Assembly: GCF_033097365.1 (NCBI RefSeq)
Contig: NZ_AP028461.1
Span: 7,378,001 to 7,442,000, forward strand
Reading direction: 5' to 3'
Source: Actinoplanes sichuanensis
Lineage (GTDB): Bacteria > Actinomycetota > Actinomycetes > Mycobacteriales > Micromonosporaceae
DNA: 64,000 nucleotides
A program made the position numbers and the translations under genes. Below the pieces are notes generated by a model that was not told the origin of the DNA, made no database searches, and was given only the letters and a program-made list of their open reading frames with translations. Each line of letters begins with the position of its first letter. Within the stretch, counting starts at the first letter, position 1. Below, one piece after another: positions 2,012-17,132 of this stretch.

Positions 2012-5000
2012 TCAGTCGATCATCACACGGTTGCGACCTGCCTCTTTTGCCCGGTAAAGCGCATGATCGGCACGGGCGAGCAGTTCGTCGAGGGTGCCGT
2101 CGTCGTCGGTCAGGCTGGTCAGGCCGACACTGATGGTGACCGTCAGTGGCCCGGCCTGGGTCGGCACCGGCTCGGACGAGACCGCCAGGCGGATCCGTTC
2201 GGCCAGGTCCGCGGCGTGCCCCTCGTGATCGGGCAGGACCGCGGCGAACTCCTCACCGCCGTACCGGCCGAGCACGTCCGAGTGCCGCAGGCGTCCGCGG
2301 ATCCGGGCGGCCACGGTACGGATGACCTCGTCGCCCACCCCGTGCCCGTACGTGTCGTTGATGTTCTTGAACTTGTCGATGTCCAGCATGACCGCCGCCA
2401 GCTGCCGCCCGTTGCGCGCGGCCGCCTGCACCAGAGCCCCGGCGATGGCGTAGAAGTGCCGCCGGTTGTGCTGCCCGGTCAGCTCGTCGGTGGTGGCCAG
2501 CTCCTGGACCCGGCTGAACAGCCGGGCGTTCTCGTAGGCGGCCATGCCCTGGGTGGCGAGCGCGGCCGCCACCTGACGGCTGGTGTCGTCCAGCCCGGCC
2601 CCGCCGACCAGCACCATCCCGACCGGGCCGTCGCGGCCGGTCAACGGGACCACCAGGGCGGTCGGTGCACCGGCGAGCAGCCTCTCCCGTACCCCCGCGG
2701 TCTCCGTCGGATCGAGAAGCTCGACGGCCTCGCCCACGGTGAGCAGCACGGGTGTCGCGATGGTCTCCGGTGACGCGGCGCCGTCGACCGCCAGCACCTC
2801 ACCGTCCCGGCCGATCAGGCAGGCCGCGGTGCCGCCGAGGGCGGTCTGGAGCGTGCCGCAGAGCTGGCGCAGCAGTTTGTCCGGTTCGAGGATGGCGGTG
2901 AGTTCGGCGTGGCTGGCCCGCAGCATCTCGGCGAACGCCTGCTGCTGGCGGGCGGCCTGGACGGCCGAGTGCAGCTGCGCGGCCCGGGCGGTCTCCAGCG
3001 AGACGGCGACGTGGCTGCTGACCGCGGTGAGCACGGCGACGTCCTCGTCGGTGAAGATGCCGCGGGCGAGCCGGCTGTCCAGATAGACGACCGCCACCAT
3101 CCGGCCCTTGAACTGGACCGGCGCGATCAGGATGCTGCGCAGGCCGTGCACGACGGCGCTGCGGGAGCCGAGGGCGGCGCCCTGTTCGGTGCCGGTGACG
3201 ACGAGTGGTTCGCCGCTCTCGGCGACCCGGCGGACCAGGCTGGTGCCGTATTCGCCGGTGTCGGCGAGGTCGCCGGTGGCGTCCCGGCCGGCGTAGCGGA
3301 CCGGTTCGCCGTTGTCGTCGAGCAGGAAGAAGATGGCCCGTTCGGCGCCGAGGATGCGCAGCATCTCGTCGAGGGCGACGCTGGCCAACTGCTGCGGGTC
3401 GAGGATGGTGGCGGCCGCGCTGCCGACCTGCTGCAGCGCATCCAGGTGGCGGTTGCGGCCGGAGGCCGGCCGACGTTCGGCGACGGTCCGGCGGTGCGTG
3501 CCGGCACCTTCGTCGACCCCGAATTCGGTACGGGTCTGCCGGCGCCGCTGCTCCCAGCCGTGGAAGATGGCCATCCCGAGCGCGAACCGGGCCTGCCGGT
3601 CGGATTCGTTGGCGAGTCCCAGGGCACGCATGGCCCGGGCCCGGATGCGGAACACCTCGTACTGGATGAACGGCGCGTCGAGCTTACGCAGCTTCCGTTC
3701 GGCCTCGTCGGCGACCTTGATGCACTTCTGCGGTTCGGCCGAGGCCAGGTGCAGGGACGCCTTGGTGGTGAGGTAGACGCAGCGCAGCAGCGGGGTGCCG
3801 CCGACCTTGCCGAGCTCCTTGATCGCCTTGGCCGCATCGGCGAGCCGGGCCGGCCGGTCCGCGTCGGAGGCGAACCGGAACTGGATCAGGCGGGAGTGCG
3901 CCATGTAGACGTAGATCCACCGGTGCTGCGGCATCAGGTCGCTGTGCCGCAGCCCGAGCGCGTGGAACTCGGCGAAGACCTCCTCCAGCTGCGGCCCGAC
4001 GTCACCCTGTTCGATCAGGGTGCAGGCGGCCGCGGTGAGCATGTTGGCCCGCTGCACGCGGGTACCGGCGCCCGGCGGGAACACCTCACGCAGGTGTTTC
4101 AGGGCGGCGGCGGCGTCACCGAAGCGGCTCTGCCCGGCCGGGACCATGACACTGAGCATGCCCAGCGAAGTGCCGAGGGCCAGCTCCTGGTCGGCCAGGC
4201 GCTGCATGCCGCGCTCGTATTCGCGGGCCGCGTCGTCGACGTAGCCGCGCAGCAGGAACCGCAGGCCGAGAGTGGCATAGCCGGGAATCAGCTGGGCCGG
4301 CACGTACCAGCGGGCGTTGCGGGTGATCGTCTTCTCCCAGACGCTGCCGTCGTCGGCACCGCTGAACAGCAGCGCGACACCGCGCAGCCACTCCACATAG
4401 GCGACCAGGCCGGGATCGCCGAGCCCCTCGGCCACCTGTTCGGCCCGCTTCAGGCAGCGCTCACTGGTGCCGCGCAGTTTGATCATCGCGGTGACGTAGC
4501 CGATCAGGGCGTACACGCGGACGTACTCCGGGCAGGGACCGAGCCGGTTCACCGCGTACAGGGCACGCAGCGCGAGAACTCCCGCCTCCCGCAGGCGCAT
4601 GCCCACCGCGGCGGCATAACCGCCGGCGTCGAGGACGGCGGCGAGAGCGGCCTGCACCTCGCGGTCTCCGCCGCGAGCTGTTCCAAACCCTATTCCGGTA
4701 CGCCGTACGAGCCCGCCCACCATCGCGATGAAGAGTGTCTGCACCAGCGCGAACAGGCCCCGCCCGGGCAGCGGCCGGCGCAGCTCGGCGAGCGCCTCCC
4801 GGGCCGTCGCCAGAGCCTTCCCGTCGTCCCAGAGGGTGTGGTGCAGTTCGATCCGGGTGGTCAGCAGTCGCGCACGCACCCGCCGGTCGGTGGCGCCGGC
4901 GAGGGCCCGGTCGATCGCCGCGTCGGCCTCGTCGAACCGCCCGGCGGCCAGGTAGGCCTGGGCGAGCACGTGCAGCAGCCCGCTGTCCGGGGCCGGATCA

Positions 5001-7153
5001 CCGTCGACGGCGTCGGTCAGGTAGTCGATCGCCTCGGTCGGGGCCTGGTCGGCCAGGGCACGACGGCCGGCGATGGCGGCGCTGCGGCGGCGGTCCTCGG
5101 GTGCGGCGGCGTCCCCGGCCCGGCGGTGGTGGCGGGCCACGGCGTACGCGTGCCCCTCGTCGCGCAGGTCTTCGGGCAGCCGTTCGAGGGCGGCGGCCAG
5201 GTCGGCGTTGAGCTGCCGCAGTTCGGTCTCGCCGACCCGGTCCAGCAGGACGTCGCGCAGTTGCGGGTGGATGAAGGCGTACCAGCCGCCCGGCCGGGGT
5301 TCCAGGACGTGCCGGTCGGCGGCGGCCGCGAGCGCACCGAGCACCCGGTCGGTCTCGCCGACCTGGAAGAGCAGTTCCGGACGGAACCGGGTGCCGGCCG
5401 CGGCGGCCACGGTCAGACAGTCCAGGGTGGCGTCCGACAGGCCGGTGAGCCGGGCCGCGATCAGGTCGCGGACGTCGGCCGCCGGCGGCAGCGCGTCGGC
5501 GCCGGCGATGTCCAGCCGCCAGCCGCCCCAGACCGGGCTGAGCAGGCCGGCGTCGAGCAACCGCAGCAGGTAGCTGACGACCGCGAGCGGTGTTCCGTCG
5601 GTACGCGCGGTGACGTGCCGGACCAGCTCGACCCCGACCTCGGCGCCGGGTAGCCGGGACGCGATCACGTCGGCGACGGCCGGGGCGGGCAGCGGGGCGC
5701 AGGACACTTCGAGGGTGCCGGTGCTCTCCAGCCCGGCGGCCGGGTCGTCGGCCCCGTCGGGTGCGGTGAACAGCACCAGGACCGGCAGTCCGGCCAGTTC
5801 GGCGGCGAGTTTCTCGATCAGCTGGCGGGTGCCGGAATCGAGGTGCTGGGCGTCGTCGACGACGAGCAGCAGCCCGCCGGCCCGGGTGGCCAGCTCACCG
5901 AGGAAGACCACCCCGGCGCCGAGGACGTGCTCGTCCCCGCCCGGTGTGGGCTCCCCGGAGATGGCCGGGACCAGGTCGCCGAAGAGCCGGGCGAGCAAAC
6001 CCGGACCGGCGGCCGCACCGGCCTCGGCGATCTGGGCGTCGGCGGTGGCGCGCTGGTCCGGCGACAGTCGGCGTACCCCGGCCTGCCAGAAGGTGATCGC
6101 CTCACGGGCGGCGGCCAACGGGGACGCCTCGTCGGGACGGCAGGTCGCCCAGAACACCGGCAGTCCGGCCACCGCGACCTCGGCCGCGAGTTCCTGGGCG
6201 AGCCGGGTCCGGCCGGCGCCGGCCGCGCCCCGGATGACGGCGATCCCGCCCTGACCGGCGCGGACACGTTCCCAGCGGCGGCTGAGCCGGTCGGCCTCCT
6301 CGGCCCGGCCCCGCATCGGCCAGCCGGTGACGGCGGCCTGCTCGGCGGCCACCCCGCCCCGGCAGCCGCGCAGGTCGGCCAGCAGGGTCGCGGCGTCCGG
6401 GTAGCGGTCGTCGGGGTCCTTGGCGAGCAGCCGGGACACCACGGCGTGCAGGGCCGGGTCGAGGCCGGGGCGCAACTCGGCCAGGTCCGGCACCGGGGCG
6501 GCCAGATGCAGGCGGAGCAGCTCCCCGACGTCGTCGGCTTCGAACGGCAGCCGCCCGGCCAGGCACTCGAACAGCACCACGCCGAGCGAGTACAGGTCGG
6601 AGCGCCCGTCGACCGGGCGTTTGAGCATGCCGGACTGTTCCGGCGAGCTGTAGAGGAAGGTGCCGACCGCCTCGTCGGTGTCGCCGCGTTCGGCGCCGAT
6701 CTGGGCCAGTCCGAAGTCGATCAGGGTGGCCGGCTGGTCCGGGCCGACCATGATGTTGCCCGGTTTGATGTCCCGGTGCACCAGGCCGAGGCGGTGTGCG
6801 GCGGCCAGGCCACGGGCCAGCCGGGCGGCCATGGTGACCACCCATTCCTCGCTGAGCGTGCCGCCGAGTTGGTCGGCCAGCGAACCGCCGGTCAGATGAT
6901 CGAGGACCATGGCCGGTACGCCGTCGAGGTCACCGACCGCGTGCACCCGGACCACACCCGGGTCGTCGATGCAGGCCAGCAGGGCGGCCTCGCGGCTGAA
7001 CTCGGTCCGGATCTCCGGGTAGGCGCTCGCGTCGGCGAGCGGGCGCTTCACCGCGTACCAGCGGTCACCCCGCCGGGCCCGGTGGACCATCGTGAATGCG
7101 CCACGGCCGAGCTCGTCGACCAATTCCAGGCCGGTCAGCCCTGTTTCCGTCAC
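2012..7153 (-). CDS. Ser/Thr kinase - AAA-type ATPase - TPR - GAF - GGDEF fusion (1713 aa)
   Basis: The domains in order are as follows. A Hanks-type kinase spans residues 10-265: glycine loop GRGAF, Lys36, HRDIKPGN with Asp128, DFG 146-148 and a YSSPE activation end. A STAND/AAA-like ATPase has Walker A GAAGAGRTR at 309-317 and Walker B LLLVVDDAQ near 430. Next is a long helical TPR-like region (about 650-1190), then GAF at about 1235-1390 and a second GAF-like domain at about 1410-1530. The C-terminal diguanylate cyclase has GGEEF at 1632-1636 and a product-inhibition I-site RHSD at 1623-1626. All catalytic residues look intact for both the kinase and the cyclase. The start is GTG 7153, which overlaps the TGA of the upstream GGDEF-EAL gene (GTGA), so translation is probably coupled. 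The kinase-ATPase-TPR-GAF order is known from large PknK-like and hybrid kinases; ending in GGDEF instead of a histidine kinase is unusual. Its signal and substrates are unknown. Confidence 0.9.
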   Translation of the reverse strand: MTETGLTGLELVDELGRGAFTMVHRARRGDRWYAVKRPLADASAYPEIRTEFSREAALLACIDDPGVVRVHAVGDLDGVPAMVLDHLTGGSLADQLGGTLSEEWVVTMAARLARGLAAAHRLGLVHRDIKPGNIMVGPDQPATLIDFGLAQIGAERGDTDEAVGTFLYSSPEQSGMLKRPVDGRSDLYSLGVVLFECLAGRLPFEADDVGELLRLHLAAPVPDLAELRPGLDPALHAVVSRLLAKDPDDRYPDAATLLADLRGCRGGVAAEQAAVTGWPMRGRAEEADRLSRRWERVRAGQGGIAVIRGAAGAGRTRLAQELAAEVAVAGLPVFWATCRPDEASPLAAAREAITFWQAGVRRLSPDQRATADAQIAEAGAAAGPGLLARLFGDLVPAISGEPTPGGDEHVLGAGVVFLGELATRAGGLLLVVDDAQHLDSGTRQLIEKLAAELAGLPVLVLFTAPDGADDPAAGLESTGTLEVSCAPLPAPAVADVIASRLPGAEVGVELVRHVTARTDGTPLAVVSYLLRLLDAGLLSPVWGGWRLDIAGADALPPAADVRDLIAARLTGLSDATLDCLTVAAAAGTRFRPELLFQVGETDRVLGALAAAADRHVLEPRPGGWYAFIHPQLRDVLLDRVGETELRQLNADLAAALERLPEDLRDEGHAYAVARHHRRAGDAAAPEDRRRSAAIAGRRALADQAPTEAIDYLTDAVDGDPAPDSGLLHVLAQAYLAAGRFDEADAAIDRALAGATDRRVRARLLTTRIELHHTLWDDGKALATAREALAELRRPLPGRGLFALVQTLFIAMVGGLVRRTGIGFGTARGGDREVQAALAAVLDAGGYAAAVGMRLREAGVLALRALYAVNRLGPCPEYVRVYALIGYVTAMIKLRGTSERCLKRAEQVAEGLGDPGLVAYVEWLRGVALLFSGADDGSVWEKTITRNARWYVPAQLIPGYATLGLRFLLRGYVDDAAREYERGMQRLADQELALGTSLGMLSVMVPAGQSRFGDAAAALKHLREVFPPGAGTRVQRANMLTAAACTLIEQGDVGPQLEEVFAEFHALGLRHSDLMPQHRWIYVYMAHSRLIQFRFASDADRPARLADAAKAIKELGKVGGTPLLRCVYLTTKASLHLASAEPQKCIKVADEAERKLRKLDAPFIQYEVFRIRARAMRALGLANESDRQARFALGMAIFHGWEQRRRQTRTEFGVDEGAGTHRRTVAERRPASGRNRHLDALQQVGSAAATILDPQQLASVALDEMLRILGAERAIFFLLDDNGEPVRYAGRDATGDLADTGEYGTSLVRRVAESGEPLVVTGTEQGAALGSRSAVVHGLRSILIAPVQFKGRMVAVVYLDSRLARGIFTDEDVAVLTAVSSHVAVSLETARAAQLHSAVQAARQQQAFAEMLRASHAELTAILEPDKLLRQLCGTLQTALGGTAACLIGRDGEVLAVDGAASPETIATPVLLTVGEAVELLDPTETAGVRERLLAGAPTALVVPLTGRDGPVGMVLVGGAGLDDTSRQVAAALATQGMAAYENARLFSRVQELATTDELTGQHNRRHFYAIAGALVQAAARNGRQLAAVMLDIDKFKNINDTYGHGVGDEVIRTVAARIRGRLRHSDVLGRYGGEEFAAVLPDHEGHAADLAERIRLAVSSEPVPTQAGPLTVTISVGLTSLTDDDGTLDELLARADHALYRAKEAGRNRVMID

Positions 7154-9486
7154 TTGACACTCATTCCGCGTCCGGCGTCACTGTGCTGATCGGCAGCGAT
7201 CTGGTCGATCTGAACGTTCCCCGCCAAGGCCAGCAGTTCGGTGGCGTTCGCGGCCGGGACCGGACGCGCGAAGTGGTAGCCCTGGGCCCGGTGGCAACCC
7301 AGGTCACGCAGCAGTGCGGCCTGGGCGCCGGTCTCCACCCCCTCGGCGACGGTGGTCAGGCCGAGCCCGCCGGCCAGGTCGACGATCGCCCGGACCAGCG
7401 CGGTCTGCCGGCCGTCGGTGTCGTCGACCGGCATGAACGAGCGGTCGATCTTCAGCACGTCGATCGGGAGGTCCCGCAGGTACGCGAGCGACGAGTAACC
7501 CGTGCCGAAGTCGTCGATCGCCACCCGTACCCCCTCGGCTCGCAAGGCGGAGAGGTGCAGCAACGCCTGCGCCGCGTGCGCACCGGAACGGACCAGCACG
7601 CCCTCGGTGATCTCCAGGGTCAGGGCGGCGGCCGGCAGGCCGCTCGCCCGCAGCGCGGCCAGCGCCTTCACGGTGAAATGCGGGTCGGCGAGCTGGCGCG
7701 GGGAGACGTTGACGGTGACCGTGGTGCCCCAGCGGTGATGCCAGGCGGCCGCGTCGGCGCAGGCCCGGCGCAGCACCCACTCACCGAGCGCGACGATCAG
7801 GCCGCTGTCCTCGGCGGCCGGGATGAACAGGTCCGGCCCGATCGGCGAACGGCCCGGCGGCAGCCAGCGGACCAGCGCCTCCACCGCCACCGGGTGGGCG
7901 TCGTCGAGCGTCACGATCGGCTGGTAGTGGACCGCGAACTCGTCGGCGTCGACCGCCGCGCGCAGCCGTTCCAGCAGGCGGATCCGGTCGGCCTGCTCCT
8001 GGCGCATGCCCACGTCGAAGACCGACGCCTGGTCCTTACCGGCCGCCTTGGCCGCGTAGAGCGCCAGGTCGGCGTCACTGAGCACCTGCACCGGGTCGGC
8101 GGTCGCGCAGAAGACGCGGATGCCGGCGCTCGCCGTGACGTGCAGCGGCTGGCCGCCGGCCGGGACCGGCTCGCGCAGCGCGGCCAGCACGGCGTCACCG
8201 CGGGCGGCCGCCTCGGCCGGGCCGGCGCCCGGCAGCAGCAGCGCGAACTCGTCGCCGCCGAGCCGGGCCGCGGTGTCACCGTCGCCGATCAGGCCGGCGA
8301 GCCGCCGGGCCACCGAGGTCAGCAGGTCGTCGCCGGTCGGGTGGCCGAACCGCTCGTTGACGTCCTTGAACCCGTCCAGGTCGACCAGCAGCAGGGCGCC
8401 CCCGGTCTGCCCGGCGAGCAGCTCCTCCAGTCGGGTGCGGTTGGGCAGGCCGGTCAGCGCGTCGTGGCGAGCCTGGTGGGTCAGGGTGCGCTGGAGTTCG
8501 GCCTGCTCGGCGAGGGAGTCCCGGAGGCTGGTGGCACGCGCGTCGGCCAGGCCGCTGGTGTGGGTGAGGCGCAGCACCAGCAGCAGGGCGGTCAGCGCGG
8601 TCGCGATCACCGGCACCACCAGATCCTTGCGGTGGTTCTCGGTGAGCAGCAGATATCCGGTGGTGGCCGGGCCGATCATCACGAGCACGATGTTGACCGC
8701 GAGCGCGGTACGGGTCTGCCGGGTCGTCGGCACGAGGCTCTGATCGACCGGTGCGCCGGCCTCCGGGTGCCGGGCCGCGGTCCCGATCAGCAGGAACGCG
8801 AGCAACCATCCGGCCGCGGTCCAGCCCGGCCCGGACCAGGACCCGCCGTCCGCGGCGGCCAGGAAGTAGAGCACGTCGGCGACGGTGAGGACACACGCCG
8901 CGGCCAGTAGCAGCCGGTCGGCCCAGGTCAGGCGCCCGTGCACGACGATCATCCGGGTGGCCGCGGCCAGCACGAGCAGGTCGAGAGCCGGGAACACCAG
9001 CGCGCACGCCGGGCCGGACCAGTACCCGCGGTCCATCACGAACGGGTCGTAGAGCGTCACCCACATCAGCGCCGCGCCGGTGCACAGCACGATCCCGGCC
9101 TCGGTCATGCCGGCCCATTTCGAACCGCCCCGGCCCTGGGCCAGGTTGAGCAGGCCGGCCGCGAGCAGCGGATACATGCCCACGTAGACGAGGTCGACGA
9201 TGGTCAGGCCGTTCGGCACCGGCAGTCCGGCGGCCATCGCGGTGCCCCAGATCGCGTTGGCCACCGCGCTGCACAGCATCGCGGCGGCCAACGGCCACCA
9301 GGCCCGGCGGCGCGCCAGGTGATGCCGGCGCACCCCACCGCGGACGGCGATCAGCGCGGCTCCGGCCACCACGACGTACGCCGCCTGGCGAGCCGTGTCG
9401 CCGAGCAGCGGCGCCGCGATCACCGGCAGCGCACCGGCGAGCAGCAGCCGGGACCAGCCACGATTCCGTTCCGTCGAGGAGCGCAC
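7150..9486 (-). CDS. Membrane GGDEF-EAL c-di-GMP enzyme (778 aa)
   Basis: About eight hydrophobic segments occupy residues 15-310 and form an integral membrane sensor of MHYT/7TM type without a recognised ligand motif. A linker helix leads to a GGDEF domain with an intact GGDEF at 410-414. The EAL domain follows, with EAL at 536-538, EITEG, DDFGTGYSSL, KIDRSF, EGVET and a final QGYHFARP. These are the metal and catalytic residues of an active c-di-GMP phosphodiesterase. Both synthesis and hydrolysis are therefore possible. The start is GTG 9486. The stop overlaps the start of the downstream kinase-GGDEF gene by four bases, linking two c-di-GMP proteins in one transcript. The MBL lipoprotein gene ends 48 bp upstream on the same strand and may or may not be co-transcribed. 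Confidence 0.92.
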   Translation of the reverse strand: MRSSTERNRGWSRLLLAGALPVIAAPLLGDTARQAAYVVVAGAALIAVRGGVRRHHLARRRAWWPLAAAMLCSAVANAIWGTAMAAGLPVPNGLTIVDLVYVGMYPLLAAGLLNLAQGRGGSKWAGMTEAGIVLCTGAALMWVTLYDPFVMDRGYWSGPACALVFPALDLLVLAAATRMIVVHGRLTWADRLLLAAACVLTVADVLYFLAAADGGSWSGPGWTAAGWLLAFLLIGTAARHPEAGAPVDQSLVPTTRQTRTALAVNIVLVMIGPATTGYLLLTENHRKDLVVPVIATALTALLLVLRLTHTSGLADARATSLRDSLAEQAELQRTLTHQARHDALTGLPNRTRLEELLAGQTGGALLLVDLDGFKDVNERFGHPTGDDLLTSVARRLAGLIGDGDTAARLGGDEFALLLPGAGPAEAAARGDAVLAALREPVPAGGQPLHVTASAGIRVFCATADPVQVLSDADLALYAAKAAGKDQASVFDVGMRQEQADRIRLLERLRAAVDADEFAVHYQPIVTLDDAHPVAVEALVRWLPPGRSPIGPDLFIPAAEDSGLIVALGEWVLRRACADAAAWHHRWGTTVTVNVSPRQLADPHFTVKALAALRASGLPAAALTLEITEGVLVRSGAHAAQALLHLSALRAEGVRVAIDDFGTGYSSLAYLRDLPIDVLKIDRSFMPVDDTDGRQTALVRAIVDLAGGLGLTTVAEGVETGAQAALLRDLGCHRAQGYHFARPVPAANATELLALAGNVQIDQIAADQHSDAGRGMSVK

Positions 9487-12182: not shown

Positions 12183-14210
12183 TCAGCTCTGTCGGGTCAG
12201 AGAAAGGGCTGTTCGTACGGTGCTCACCAGCCTCTCCCGGTCGAACGGTTTGGCCAGGATGGTGGATCCCGGTTCGAGATTGTTGCCCTTCTCGTCGAAG
12301 AGCGACTCGGCGTACCCGGAGACGAACACCACACACAGGTCGGGTCGCCGGCCGGAGGCGATCCGAGCCAGCTGACGGCCGTCCATCCCGGGCATCACCA
12401 CGTCGGTGACCAGGGCGGCGATCTCACCGCCGTGCCGTTCCAGCAGGCGTAGGGCCTCGGCCGCGTCGGGGGCGGTCAGCACGCGGTACCCGGCGCCGCC
12501 GAGCATCCGGGCGGTCACCTGGAGCACAGCGTCCTCGTCGTCGACCAGTAGCAGGGTCTCCCCTCCCCCGCGTTCCCGTGGGGCCGGCTGCGGCGGGGGC
12601 GGCGGTGCCGGGACGGTTCCGGCCACGGCCGGCAGCGAGATCGTCACCGACGCGCCCGTGCCGGACGAACGCAGCGCGAGCTGGCCGCCGGCCTGGCTGA
12701 CGATGCCGTGCACGGTGGAGAGGCCGAGACCGACCGTGCCGGTCGTCGACTTGGTGCTGAAGAACGGCTCGCAGGCGCGTTCCAGCACGTCCGGGGTCAT
12801 GCCGGAGCCGGTGTCGCGTACCTCGATGGTGACGTTTCCGCCCTCGGTCGCGGTGGTGACGGTCACCCGGCCGCCGTCCGGCATCGCCTCGCCGCTGTTG
12901 CGGACCAGGTTGTCCAGCGCCCGGGCCAGTTGCACCGGGTCGGCCTTGACCTCGGGCAGGTCGGCGCGCAGCACGAAGCGCACCTCGCACTCCGGGCCGG
13001 CGGCCGCGCGCAGCGACTCCTGACACTCCTCCAGCAGGGCGTTGACCTTGACCGCGGCCGGCTGGTTCACCTCGCGGCGACCGAACGCCAGCATGTGCTG
13101 GGTCAGGGCCTTGGCCCGCTCGCCGCCCTTGACCACCTGGGCCAGGTCACCCAGCAGTGACTCGACGGTCTCGGCCGGGATGCTGCCGTCGTCACGGCCG
13201 TCGTTGATCGACTCGATGGCCAGGTTGGTGTAGCCGAGGATCGCGCCCAGGATGTTGTTGAAGTCGTGGGCCGTGCCACCGGCCATCCGGCGCAGGCTGT
13301 CCAGGCGCTCGGCGTCCCGGTGCCGGGCCTCGTCCTGGCGGCGCTGGCTCTCCTCGCGCAGCCGCTCCTCGGCCAGCGTGACGTCGGTGACGTCGTCGAC
13401 CATCAGCACGCCGCCGGTCAGGCCCTCGTCCTCGTCGTGGGTCTGGCGCAGGTGGATGCGCAGCGAGCGGGCGGTGCCGTCACGCCAGGTGATCCGATGG
13501 TTGTAGCGCAGTTCGTCGCCGGCGCCGTCGCCACGCAGCAGCGCCAGAACCGCCGCCTCGTCGCGGGCGGCGAGACCGAGGCGGGACAGCCAGGCCGGCG
13601 AGTCGGCGAGTTGATCCATCGGCAGCTGGAGGATCTCGGCGAGCCGCGGGTTCACGTAGTCGGCGCTGCCGCGCCGGTTGATGATCCCGATCCCGACCGG
13701 GGACGCGACGGCCATCGCCTCGAAGAGCCGCTCGGTGTCGTGCAGCGCCCGGACCTTCTCGACCAGCTTGGCGTTGACGGTCTGCAGGTGGGCCTGGGCG
13801 AACACCTCGTCGGTGGTCACGCTGACGTCGACCGGCCCGGCGGCCAGCGCGGTGTCGATCGCGTCGAGCAACGCGTCCGGGTCCTGGGAGCGCAGCACCA
13901 CCTGGCTGACCCCGCAGGCCTCGGCGATCGGCCGGGTCTCCGGCTCCAGGTAGTTGGCGGTGTAGAAGATCACCGGAGCCTGAGCGGCCTCCCGGTCCGG
14001 GTCGGCACGGAGCCGGTGGACCAGTTCGAGGCCGTCGATGCCGGGCATCAGGACGTCCGACACCACCACGTCCGGGTGGTGCGCGTGGGCGAGCCGGAGC
14101 GCGTCGGCCCCGTCGTGCGCCTCGATGACGTCGTGGCCACGGAAACCGAGCAGCATGCGCACGATCTCCCGGTTCGCGGCCACGTCGTCGACGACCATCA
14201 CTGTCGCCAC
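12183..14210 (-). CDS. Receiver-PAS-histidine kinase-receiver hybrid (675 aa)
   Basis: An N-terminal receiver (1-130) has the acidic pair D8/D9 and phosphoacceptor Asp52 in SDVLMPG. A PAS domain (about 165-275) follows. The dimerisation helix has GGTAHDFNNILGA with His315, the H-box style of the HWE-like/CckA hybrid kinases. The GHKL domain shows N-box DNLVRNSGEA, GSGM and GLGLSTVHG. A Pro-rich linker leads to a second receiver with D603 in TDVVMPGMDG and Lys in LAKPF. The layout resembles CckA-like kinases, which can move phosphate to a downstream receiver. The start is GTG 14210. It diverges from another hybrid kinase across a 111-bp shared promoter region. There is no transmembrane segment, so it is cytoplasmic. 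Confidence 0.9.
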   Translation of the reverse strand: MATVMVVDDVAANREIVRMLLGFRGHDVIEAHDGADALRLAHAHHPDVVVSDVLMPGIDGLELVHRLRADPDREAAQAPVIFYTANYLEPETRPIAEACGVSQVVLRSQDPDALLDAIDTALAAGPVDVSVTTDEVFAQAHLQTVNAKLVEKVRALHDTERLFEAMAVASPVGIGIINRRGSADYVNPRLAEILQLPMDQLADSPAWLSRLGLAARDEAAVLALLRGDGAGDELRYNHRITWRDGTARSLRIHLRQTHDEDEGLTGGVLMVDDVTDVTLAEERLREESQRRQDEARHRDAERLDSLRRMAGGTAHDFNNILGAILGYTNLAIESINDGRDDGSIPAETVESLLGDLAQVVKGGERAKALTQHMLAFGRREVNQPAAVKVNALLEECQESLRAAAGPECEVRFVLRADLPEVKADPVQLARALDNLVRNSGEAMPDGGRVTVTTATEGGNVTIEVRDTGSGMTPDVLERACEPFFSTKSTTGTVGLGLSTVHGIVSQAGGQLALRSSGTGASVTISLPAVAGTVPAPPPPPQPAPRERGGGETLLLVDDEDAVLQVTARMLGGAGYRVLTAPDAAEALRLLERHGGEIAALVTDVVMPGMDGRQLARIASGRRPDLCVVFVSGYAESLFDEKGNNLEPGSTILAKPFDRERLVSTVRTALSLTRQS

Positions 14211-14321
14211 GTCGGCTCCCTTGCGGCGAGTCTGTGGGTGCTATGTCCGTAATAAGGCTAAAGCAGAAGAAGGTCGCATGTACGTTGATGCTGAATCGGA
14301 TTCGGATCCTCGGAGGCCGCA

Positions 14322-17132
14322 GTGTTGCGTAGGGCCGTGTCTCTGCTGGCTGGAGTGGCCGCCGGCGTCACCGCGGTGCTGCTGGCCCACCGGTCCCGGA
14401 AGGCGGCGGCCCGGGCCGAGGCGGGCCGGCGGACCGAGGCCCTGGAGAACGCCCGGCTCGCCGCCATCGTCGAGGCCTCCCAGGACGCGATCGTCAGCAA
14501 GACCCCGGAGGGCACCATCAAGAGCTGGAACCCCGGCGCCGAGCGTCTCTACGGATACACCGCCGAGGAGATGGTCGGCAGCGACGTGTGCCGCCTGCTG
14601 CCCGAGGACCGGCTCGGTGAGGAGCGCGAACTGCTCGCCCGGGTCCGCCGCGGCCAGGCCCTGACCAGGTACGAGACCCGCCGTCGCCGCAAGGACGGGA
14701 AGATCATCGAGGTGTCGCTGAGCATGGCCCCGATGCGCGACACCGATCACGAGGTGATCGGTACCGCCACCGTCGCGCACGACATCACCGTCCGGGTCCA
14801 GGCCGACCAGCGCCGCCGGGTGGAGCGCGAACAGCTCGAAATGATCATGCAGGCGGCCAGCGACCCGTTCTTCACGATGGACGGCGAGGGTGTGATCACC
14901 GAGTGGAACCGGCAGGCCGAACACGTCTTCGGCTGGCGGCGCCCGGAGATCCTGGGTCGCGACGTGACCGGCACGATCCTGCCCACGCGCTACCACCCGG
15001 CACTTGGCCGGCTGCTCGCCGGCCGGTGGGGGTGGCTACTGGACCGGCCCACCGAGATGACCGCGACGCACCGGGACGGACACGAGATCCCGGTCGAGCT
15101 GACGATGTGGTGCATCCGGCACAACAACGGCTCGCACTTCCACGGTTTCGTCCGCGACATCACCGCCCGACTCCAGACCGAGCAGGCCCTCGGCCAGGCG
15201 CGGGACCAGGCGGTCGAGACGGCCCGACTGAAGTCGCAGTTCCTCGCGTCGATGAGCCACGAGATCCGCACCCCGATGAACGGGGTGATCGGGCTGACCG
15301 GACTACTGCTCGGCACCACACTCGACGAACGCCAGCGCCGGTACGCCGAGGGGATCAGCTCGGCCGGCTCCGCGCTGCTCTCGGTGATCAACGACATCCT
15401 CGACTTCTCCAAACTGGAAGCCGGCAAGGTGCTGCTGGAGGAGGCCAACTTCCGGATCGGCAGACTTCTCGACGACGTGGTGTCGCTGGTCGCCCCGCCG
15501 GACACGCACGACGGGCTCTCGATCACCGCGATCTGCGACGAGCGGCTACCCGACGCGGTCTGCGGCGACCCGGCCAAACTGCGTCAGGTGCTGCTCAACC
15601 TGGCCGGCAACGCGGTGAAGTTCACCCCGCACGGGACGATCACGGTCGCCGCGCACCTGGACACCGGGCTCGCCTGCGGGCCGGAGGCGGTACCGATCCG
15701 GTTCGAGGTGCACGACACCGGCATCGGCATCGACGGGCACCGGCAGGAGGAGTTGTTCGAGGCGTTCACCCAGGCCGACGCGGGCACCACCCGGCGGTTC
15801 GGCGGCACCGGGCTGGGCCTGGCGATCAGCCGGGACCTGGTCGAGCTGATGGGCGGGCGGATCGGGGTGGCCAGCGAACCGGGGCGGGGCAGCACGTTCT
15901 GGTTCACGGTCACGCTGCGGACCGCACAGGAGCACCTGGACCTCGTCGAACGGCACGCCCTGGACGGGCTGCGGGTGCTCGTCGTGGACCGCGACCCGGA
16001 GGACCGTACCGTCCTGGCCGAGCAGTTGGCCGCCTGGTCGATGGACGCCATCGGGGTGGCCGACACGGTCGAGGCGATCGCCGTGCTGCGTGACGCGGCC
16101 GCCGCCGGACGGCCGATCGACCTGCTCATCGTCGACATGCACACGGCACCCGAGGACACCGTGGCGATCACCCCGCCGGACTGCCCGCCGCCCCGGACGA
16201 TCCTGCTCGCCGAGGACGCCCATCACCTGCCGGACGAACCCGACCCGGCCTGGGTGGCGGCCGCCTTCGCCAAACCGCTGCGGCAGTCGCAGCTCTACGA
16301 CGCCCTGGTCGGGGTGCTCGGCGACCGGGCCGGTGACCAGGCGATCAGCACCACCGCCGAGGCGCCGCCGGGGCGCGGTCACCTGCTGGTGGTCGAGGAC
16401 AACGAGATCAACCGGACGGTCGCGCTCGGCATCCTGGCCAACCTCGGCTACAGCGCCGACGTCGCGGTCAACGGGCGGGAGGCGGTCGAGCTGGCCACCC
16501 GCCACGAGTACCAGGCGATCTTCATGGACTGCCTGATGCCGGAGATGGACGGCTACGCGGCGACCGCCGAGATCCGCCGCCGGGAGCAGGCCGGCCGGCA
16601 CGTGCCGATCATCGCGCTGACCGCCGGCGCGCTGGCCGAGGACCGGGCCCGGTGCCTGGCCGCCGGCATGGACGAGCACATCGCCAAGCCGCTCGTCCCG
16701 GCCGACGTGTCCCGGGTGCTGGAGCACTGGATCAAAGCCGAACCGGTCCGGCCCGACCTGCCGACGATGGTCACCGAGATCGAACGGCGGCTGGACCAGC
16801 TGCGCGGCCCCGACCCGGCGGCCACCGCCGGAGCGCTGGCCGGGCTCCTCGCGTCGCTGTCGGCGAAGATCCCGGAACACCTGGACCGGATGCAGCAGGC
16901 CCTCGCCTTCGACGACACGAACCAGCTCCGGATCGAGGCGCACCAACTGATGGGTGTGCTGGCCAACCTGGGAGCGGGACCGGCGACGACCGCGTGCGGC
17001 CGGATCGAGACCGCGGCCCGGGCCGGTGACCTGGACGCGGCGGTGGTCACCTTCACCGCCGCGCGCCCCCTGATCATGATGGCCCGGGACGCCGCCGACC
17101 TGATCCGCCGCAACCCGGTCGGCGTCGGCTAG
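14322..17132 (+). CDS. PAS-PAS-histidine kinase-receiver-receiver-HPt hybrid (936 aa)
   Basis: A single hydrophobic N-terminal stretch (about 5-22) may anchor the protein. Two PAS domains follow (about 45-165 and 170-285). The kinase core has SHEIRTPMNG with His313 and a GHKL domain with NLAGNAVKFT, DTGIGID and GGTGLGLAIS. The first receiver (about 545-680) is divergent: it keeps Asp in LLIVDMHT and Lys in FAKPL but lacks the usual Thr/Ser. The second receiver is canonical, with D736 in FMDCLMPEMDG. The C-terminal HPt domain has EAHQLMG with His874. This is a complete internal phosphorelay. The GTG start at 14322 is supported by cggagg at 14311-14316, six bases upstream. The stop overlaps the convergent TerC stop in a CTAG. 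Confidence 0.92.
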   Translation: MLRRAVSLLAGVAAGVTAVLLAHRSRKAAARAEAGRRTEALENARLAAIVEASQDAIVSKTPEGTIKSWNPGAERLYGYTAEEMVGSDVCRLLPEDRLGEERELLARVRRGQALTRYETRRRRKDGKIIEVSLSMAPMRDTDHEVIGTATVAHDITVRVQADQRRRVEREQLEMIMQAASDPFFTMDGEGVITEWNRQAEHVFGWRRPEILGRDVTGTILPTRYHPALGRLLAGRWGWLLDRPTEMTATHRDGHEIPVELTMWCIRHNNGSHFHGFVRDITARLQTEQALGQARDQAVETARLKSQFLASMSHEIRTPMNGVIGLTGLLLGTTLDERQRRYAEGISSAGSALLSVINDILDFSKLEAGKVLLEEANFRIGRLLDDVVSLVAPPDTHDGLSITAICDERLPDAVCGDPAKLRQVLLNLAGNAVKFTPHGTITVAAHLDTGLACGPEAVPIRFEVHDTGIGIDGHRQEELFEAFTQADAGTTRRFGGTGLGLAISRDLVELMGGRIGVASEPGRGSTFWFTVTLRTAQEHLDLVERHALDGLRVLVVDRDPEDRTVLAEQLAAWSMDAIGVADTVEAIAVLRDAAAAGRPIDLLIVDMHTAPEDTVAITPPDCPPPRTILLAEDAHHLPDEPDPAWVAAAFAKPLRQSQLYDALVGVLGDRAGDQAISTTAEAPPGRGHLLVVEDNEINRTVALGILANLGYSADVAVNGREAVELATRHEYQAIFMDCLMPEMDGYAATAEIRRREQAGRHVPIIALTAGALAEDRARCLAAGMDEHIAKPLVPADVSRVLEHWIKAEPVRPDLPTMVTEIERRLDQLRGPDPAATAGALAGLLASLSAKIPEHLDRMQQALAFDDTNQLRIEAHQLMGVLANLGAGPATTACGRIETAARAGDLDAAVVTFTAARPLIMMARDAADLIRRNPVGVG

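Follow-up and report, generated by a model that had tools for sequence, protein, structure and literature searches.

In 2005 a survey (PMC1262709) listed a Clostridium thermocellum protein described as Kinase + 6 TPR + GGDEF, 1826 amino acids in length, and proposed for it a role in making c-di-GMP. The protein that we call P1 resembles it in having a kinase at its N-terminal end, TPR, a GGDEF domain at its C-terminal end and a very long chain, in the order kinase, TPR, GGDEF that the survey gives. A protein of the C. thermocellum kind that we found in a Clostridia metagenome-assembled genome (L135:9845-15307, 1820 amino acids) consists of a kinase with HRN in place of HRD, an AAA domain, many TPRs, a GGDEF domain and then a GAF domain; P1 differs from it in having HRD and in carrying its GAF domains before the GGDEF. 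A second group for comparison is that of the HstK-type dual kinases, which combine a Ser/Thr kinase, GAF and a histidine kinase according to two papers (PMC1262709, PMC2176072). The scaffold of N-terminal Pkinase plus GAF is common to these proteins and P1, but their C-terminal end is HisKA/HATPase where P1 has GGDEF, and Pfam gives no HisKA or HATPase match in P1 at E 0.01. The HstK-type scaffold also includes an AAA part. P1 further matches the TOMM kinase/cyclase fusion model (NCBIfam TIGR03903) at 1.6e-51, with its best stretch at residues 276-715, and scores 175.4 bits against a curated cut-off of 705.75; the cyclase of those fusions is of another type than that of P1.

For the C-terminal part of P1 the nearest likenesses are the cyclases IsPadC and Dcsbis, in which sensor domains and long helices precede the GGDEF domain as in P1, although we know of no kinase, AAA or TPR part in either. 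The second protein of the locus, P2, has a GGDEF-EAL portion resembling those of PA0575 and MorA, to which it adds a membrane part of ten helices without a known family. In PA0575/MorA-like proteins GTP at the GGDEF domain can drive the EAL domain.

The genes for P1 and P2 lie next to each other on the reverse strand of the window, the whole stretch of 64,000 nucleotides from Actinoplanes sichuanensis that was analysed. Their domains, conserved residues, overlaps and distribution, as well as the scattered occurrence of P2 and the three types of partner described below, were computed directly. Features are collected in Table 1.

Table 1. Features of the P1-P2 locus and of the related pairs; plain coordinates refer to the window and coordinates with a locus label to that locus
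Feature	Coordinates	Strand	Basis
P1, 1713 aa, GTG start, kinase-AAA_16-TPR/helical-GAF-GAF-GGDEF	2012..7153	-	ORF, Pfam, homologues
P1 Ser/Thr kinase domain, residues 11-251, canonical Lys/Glu/HRDxK/DFG	6401..7123	-	Pfam Pkinase 1.5e-33, alignment
P1 AAA_16 (STAND-like), residues 281-460, Walker B DD retained	5774..6313	-	Pfam 3.2e-17, alignment
P1 Walker A GAAGAGRT, residues 309-316, Arg315 where Lys expected	6206..6229	-	alignment
P1 TPR and presumed helical region, residues 699-1235	3449..5059	-	TPR_19 at 699-760 (9.7e-7); remainder by position only
P1 first GAF (GAF_2), residues 1251-1387	2993..3403	-	Pfam 9.6e-17
P1 second GAF-like domain, about residues 1424-1535	2549..2884	-	AlphaFold2 helix/strand order, Foldseek; no Pfam match
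P1 GGDEF, residues 1553-1709, GGEEF and I-site RHSD	2027..2497	-	Pfam 2.1e-44, alignment
Overlap GTGA, 4 nt: P2 stop and P1 GTG start	7150..7153	-	sequence
P2, 778 aa, membrane GGDEF-EAL protein	7150..9486	-	ORF, Pfam, model
P2 EAL, residues 506-742, catalytic motifs retained	7261..7971	-	Pfam 4e-69, alignment
P2 GGDEF, residues 339-485, no I-site	8032..8472	-	Pfam 1.7e-35, alignment
P2 membrane part at the N-terminus, with about ten hydrophobic helices and not assigned to a Pfam family	8542..9486	-	hydropathy, model, Pfam
Metallo-beta-lactamase-fold gene upstream of P2	9535..10272	-	directly upstream of P1 in eight P2-less relatives
GAF-GGDEF-EAL gene overlapping P1 stop by ATGA	L176:14289-16565; corresponding place in L175		frame check
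Distant paralogue in own genome, 1615 aa, kinase-AAA-GAF-GGDEF	L181:6554-11401		Pfam

P1 and the state of its catalytic sites

The first-pass annotation had read from the letters a kinase-ATPase-TPR-GAF-GGDEF architecture for P1, and Pfam and the open reading frame agree with it, coordinates included. The coding GC pattern is present in both the P1 and P2 genes. Long antisense open frames lie opposite both (window 7096-8910 on the forward strand opposite P2, 604 amino acids, and 2909-5653, likewise forward, opposite P1, 914 amino acids); they are an effect of high GC, and simple gene calling in relatives was misled by them. A receiver-histidine-kinase gene and, divergent from it, one for a PAS-HisKA-receiver-Hpt hybrid kinase are found near the pair, at window 12183-17132.

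Residues were counted over 112 aligned homologues out of the 120 listed, seven short ones and P0113 being left out. The kinase carries the whole Hanks-type Ser/Thr set (Lys, Glu, HRDxKxxN, DFG): Lys36, Glu55, His126, Arg127, Asp128, Asn133 and Asp146 are invariant in all 112, as is the DF of DFG, and the HRDxK Lys and the DFG Gly are each found in 111. The cyclase is equally well preserved, with GGEEF in 112/112 and with the D-x-D, the F, K and N-D and the GH of the DIDKFKNINDTYGH stretch also in every homologue, so that P1 has by sequence both the motif and the metal- and nucleotide-binding residues of a diguanylate cyclase. At the I-site the Arg is kept in 110 and the Asp in all. The kinase and cyclase sites of P1 look intact, as the earlier description had it.

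The AAA part is another matter. The Walker B DD of the AAA_16 domain is kept (111/112), but the Walker A Lys of the P-loop is replaced by Arg in P1 (GAAGAGRT), which does not fit the GxxxxGK[ST] pattern of STAND/AAA_16 ATPases. Among the 112 homologues this position is Arg in 88, Lys in 23 and His in one, and in 44 proteins of the genus group (41 of the 42 orthologous loci described below, G031 being left out, plus three of the next group) 43 have Arg, and G011 alone has Lys. Three changes suffice to account for the residue on a tree of the 112 built with FastTree, which came with a long-branch warning, against about 22 in shuffles. The substitution is therefore old and fixed rather than the decay of a single strain. 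It weakens the case for an active ATPase, though it is no proof of lost hydrolysis, and the 'nucleotide-driven assembly' suggested at first is weakened with it.

The C-terminal part of P1 (residues 1236-1713) was modelled with AlphaFold2 (pLDDT 82, pTM 0.42) as two GAF-like units joined by a long helix, with the GGDEF after them. The closest solved structures by Foldseek were the Idiomarina bacteriophytochrome-activated cyclase, which we take to be IsPadC, and Dcsbis. With pTM near 0.4, here as for P2, the arrangement of the domains is beyond the reach of the models.

These data bear on which end of P1 is the output. The chain could be run in the opposite direction, with the GGDEF domain as sensor and the kinase as output, c-di-GMP at the I-site or GTP binding controlling the kinase by way of the scaffold; the well-kept I-site and the retained kinase residues would both suit such an arrangement. 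We nevertheless consider it quite improbable, as the full cyclase motif with its metal and nucleotide residues is invariant, which would be needless for a mere binding domain, and the C-terminal part is laid out as in IsPadC and other input-to-cyclase proteins, the GGDEF coming after sensor domains and long helices.

Distribution of the kinase-cyclase fusion

Among the named relatives listed, the closest to P1 come from A. xinjiangensis (90 % over the best segment) and A. philippinensis (89 %). Within the genus, the middle region of P1 (residues 760-1245) finds a match at E 0.001 in 65 of 67 genomes. Family-wide, at E <= 1e-15 and with four candidates scored per genome, there are matches in 77 of 354 genomes, spread over 7 of 44 genera; many of these family matches are 27-46 % alike and are members of sister groups. 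Kinase, AAA, GAF and GGDEF occur together in one chain in 113 of the 120 listed homologues, one or more being absent from the other seven. A contig search with P1 gave 497 relatives, and the 80 loci kept from it were for the most part GGDEF-only. All 62 kinase-AAA open frames that were checked in the fetched loci end in GGDEF, outside L182 and L183 and with L164, L195, L211, L216 and L217 missing from that listing. A. sichuanensis itself (G000) has three kinase-AAA-GGDEF proteins.

The GGDEF end had been singled out as the uncommon part of P1. Given the counts in the genus and among the listed homologues, together with the 2005 description in PMC1262709, it is neither new nor rare here. Our literature search by title and abstract, using the name or the domains of the fusion, gave nothing beyond that survey; for Actinoplanes and c-di-GMP the same kind of search, which covered few subscription journals, turned up none that deals with a protein of this kind from Actinoplanes, and no experiments on any family member were found.

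P2 and its overlap with P1

P2 was described at first as carrying both GGDEF and EAL with full catalytic sets. The motif letters compared for both are indeed retained over 19 aligned homologues, with deviations of flanking letters in one or two rows, and P2 is by sequence a GGDEF-EAL protein with both sets of catalytic motifs; the I-site of its GGDEF, however, is missing. GDGD stands in its place, and the Arg is absent in 18 of 19 rows, RTSD being found only in P0261, the most distant of them. The model of P2 (pLDDT 78, pTM 0.40) has about ten N-terminal helices followed by GGDEF-EAL, and the solved structures closest to the latter are PA0575 with GTP bound, presumably the protein known as RmcA, and MorA. 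P2 belongs to a narrow family, which at E 0.001 numbers 23 proteins with P2 counted in; 18 of these reach at least 44 %.

The GTG start of P1 does overlap the stop of P2, as had been noticed, by the four nucleotides GTGA. Because the genes overlap, a single transcript for both is likely, in keeping with the first proposal; scans of the region for promoters and terminators were empty or at chance level.

Conservation of the pair

In the genus search the P1 orthologous group comprised 42 loci in 41 genomes, with 53-100 % identity over the middle region; one of them, with a broken frame (L164, in G031), was counted among the 42 but left out of the tree. By tblastn, P2 is directly upstream of P1 at only six of the 42 (G000, G041, G028, G065, G005 and G059), so that the neighbour, whose conservation had been put forward as the thing to check, is mostly not conserved. 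In the first four of these genomes the same 4-nt overlap is kept, the GTGA of G000 being identical in its three relatives, and in G005 and G059 the genes abut. In eight relatives that lack P2 (G066, G046, G032, G022, G054, G033, G051 and G035) what directly precedes P1 is the metallo-beta-lactamase gene; contig ends cut G066 and G041 upstream, but the metallo-beta-lactamase gene of the former and P2 of the latter are still visible.

On a quick tree of 44 P1 proteins, again with a long-branch warning, the presence of P2 is scattered within one clade and requires four changes, a number reached by 8 of 500 shuffles. P2 identity declines as P1 identity declines (84, 78, 74, 63 and 60 %). As P2 identity tracks that of P1 and the overlap is identical, the history that fits best and is favoured is one in which P2 was gained once, at the root of a clade of 14 rows, and then lost several times. 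P1 and P2 as an obligate unit was also considered and is ruled out by P2's presence at 6/42 loci and its scatter within the clade.

It could be asked whether P2 is more than a chance neighbour that happens to separate P1 from the metallo-beta-lactamase gene in a single clade of Actinoplanes, with P1 acting alone and the overlap reflecting compact packing. Its absence at 36 of 42 loci, the eight close relatives in which the metallo-beta-lactamase gene adjoins P1, and the P2-like N-terminal regions in G013 and G016, which are away from any kinase-cyclase, all lean that way, as does the clustering of GGDEF and EAL genes in general: of the 126 ORFs with either domain in the A. sichuanensis genome, 20 have another within about 300 nt. 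Against it are the exact overlap in four genomes and the abutting genes in two more, the two other cases, described below, in which a kinase-cyclase gene overlaps a GGDEF-EAL gene of an unrelated type, and a count in the same genome, made post hoc and with gene spans estimated from domain positions, in which a same-strand GGDEF-EAL neighbour was found for two of three kinase-cyclases vs. two of the 58 other GGDEF-only ORFs (61 in all; Fisher one-sided p = 0.0096). On balance we think chance adjacency rather unlikely.

Other pairings and a second kinase-cyclase family

The first-pass idea that a kinase-cyclase gene is coupled to a GGDEF-EAL gene gains from two other pairings. In G006 and G009 a GAF-GGDEF-EAL gene (758 and 759 amino acids) is located downstream of P1, its ATG overlapping the P1 stop as ATGA; at least 3 kb downstream of P1 could be viewed in 39 of 41 fetched loci, with only 635 nt in G014 and G031 excluded. 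Counting P2 and this type together, a GGDEF-EAL gene is directly beside P1 at 8 of 42 loci and none was seen at the other 34, so that P1 can do its work without the pairing.

The third pair is formed in the A. sichuanensis genome by a distant paralogue of P1 (in L181) and a 644-amino-acid GGDEF-EAL gene following it with an ATGA overlap (L181:6554-13332, G000:C1 ~6.177-6.183 Mb). Among the 14 best orthologues of this paralogue in the genus search (identity of at least 60 %, the broken G031 copy being judged by its larger piece) the pair is kept in 12 and absent in G014 and G051; the overlap is of 4 nt in ten orthologues and of 1 nt in G040, and the broken G031 neighbour is adjacent. No GGDEF-EAL gene was found directly beside seven more distant loci (L212-L218) or the third paralogue of the genome (L180). 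All four domains occur in 101 of the 120 listed homologues of the L181 paralogue, and 17 have kinase and AAA without GGDEF, 15 of these with HATPase (PF02518). A phylum-wide search with the paralogue found it in 1 of 296, which says little on absence because two candidates were scored per genome.

The three types of GGDEF-EAL partner align with one another only over GGDEF-EAL (40-47 %) and have no N-terminal similarity, which makes a separate origin of the pairings most likely.

The two kinase-cyclase families also differ in their ATP sites. In 99 proteins of the second family (98 of the 120 listed and the A. sichuanensis one) the HRDxK Lys is found in none, the position being Ser in 50, Asn in 37, Cys in 8 and Thr in 4, and the DFG Gly in only 4, with Glu in 60 and Asp in 29; the Walker A Lys is present in 99/99, the reverse of the P1 clade. 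The altered kinase scores 24.2 bits against Pfam APH (cut-off 23.2), with no single stretch above the cut-off, and it may still be active since its site recalls aminoglycoside-phosphotransferase-like kinases.

A wider proposal, which we offer tentatively and believe doubtful as a whole, is that Actinoplanes and its kin have repeatedly built a local c-di-GMP switch from a kinase-STAND-GAF-cyclase gene overlapping a GGDEF-EAL gene, with three unrelated partners, on both sides and by 4 nt each, and that the two families have traded engines, one having a canonical kinase and a P-loop Arg and the other a canonical P-loop and a kinase without HRDxK and DFG, such that only one ATP-using engine per protein would drive the cyclase.

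Proposed function and setting

The reading that we prefer, and to which we would give a probability of about one half, is that P1 is a diguanylate cyclase gated by signals and by phosphorylation and that P2 is its co-translated, exchangeable phosphodiesterase. What we infer here from sequence is every activity, the path taken by the signal, co-translation and whatever contact P1 and P2 may have. P1 would be a multi-input cyclase with no predicted membrane anchor, its inputs arriving through the STAND-like AAA/helical part and the two GAF domains. The Ser/Thr kinase, by phosphorylating itself or a partner, would set the state of the protein. The AAA part, with Arg for the Walker A Lys, would serve as a scaffold that binds a nucleotide or a ligand, not as a working ATPase. 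The helices of the tandem GAF-GAF unit would pair two GGDEF domains for the synthesis of c-di-GMP, with product inhibition at the I-site.

P2, in turn, would act at the membrane as a phosphodiesterase, its EAL domain degrading c-di-GMP; its GGDEF domain may sense GTP as a regulator or have weak cyclase activity. Through the 4-nt overlap the two proteins would be made in linked amounts, which would allow synthesis to be balanced locally against breakdown. The phosphodiesterase partner would be exchangeable and losable, as other kinase-cyclases of the genus overlap unrelated GGDEF-EAL genes.

The setting is one in which a c-di-GMP role for the pair is plausible. In the A. sichuanensis genome (12.14 Mb in a single contig) GGDEF was matched 118 times and EAL 64 times, over about 126 ORFs and with partial hits counted. 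One actinobacterial survey (PMC10746217) gives 0 to 80 GGDEF proteins per genome, a range that the 118 matches, partial hits included, exceed; it places the most GGDEF domains among the surveyed actinobacteria in Actinoplanes and suggests zoospores as the reason. WhiG is present and RsiG absent in Actinoplanes, according to PMC8325347. For strain SE50/110, PMC6828939 reports 67 GGDEF or EAL proteins, 48 of them with both domains, and credits one GGDEF-EAL gene, located in a maltase operon, with broad effects.

If our preferred reading is correct, P1 would provide a direct link from Ser/Thr phosphorylation to c-di-GMP in a genus that forms sporangia, has spores that swim and is very rich in c-di-GMP enzymes. 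The Lys-to-Arg change that P1 carries naturally, set beside the opposite state of the paralogue family, would make it testable which ATP-using domain controls the fused cyclase. The recurring overlaps, likewise, would make it testable whether opposing c-di-GMP enzymes encoded by overlapping genes act as one local unit.
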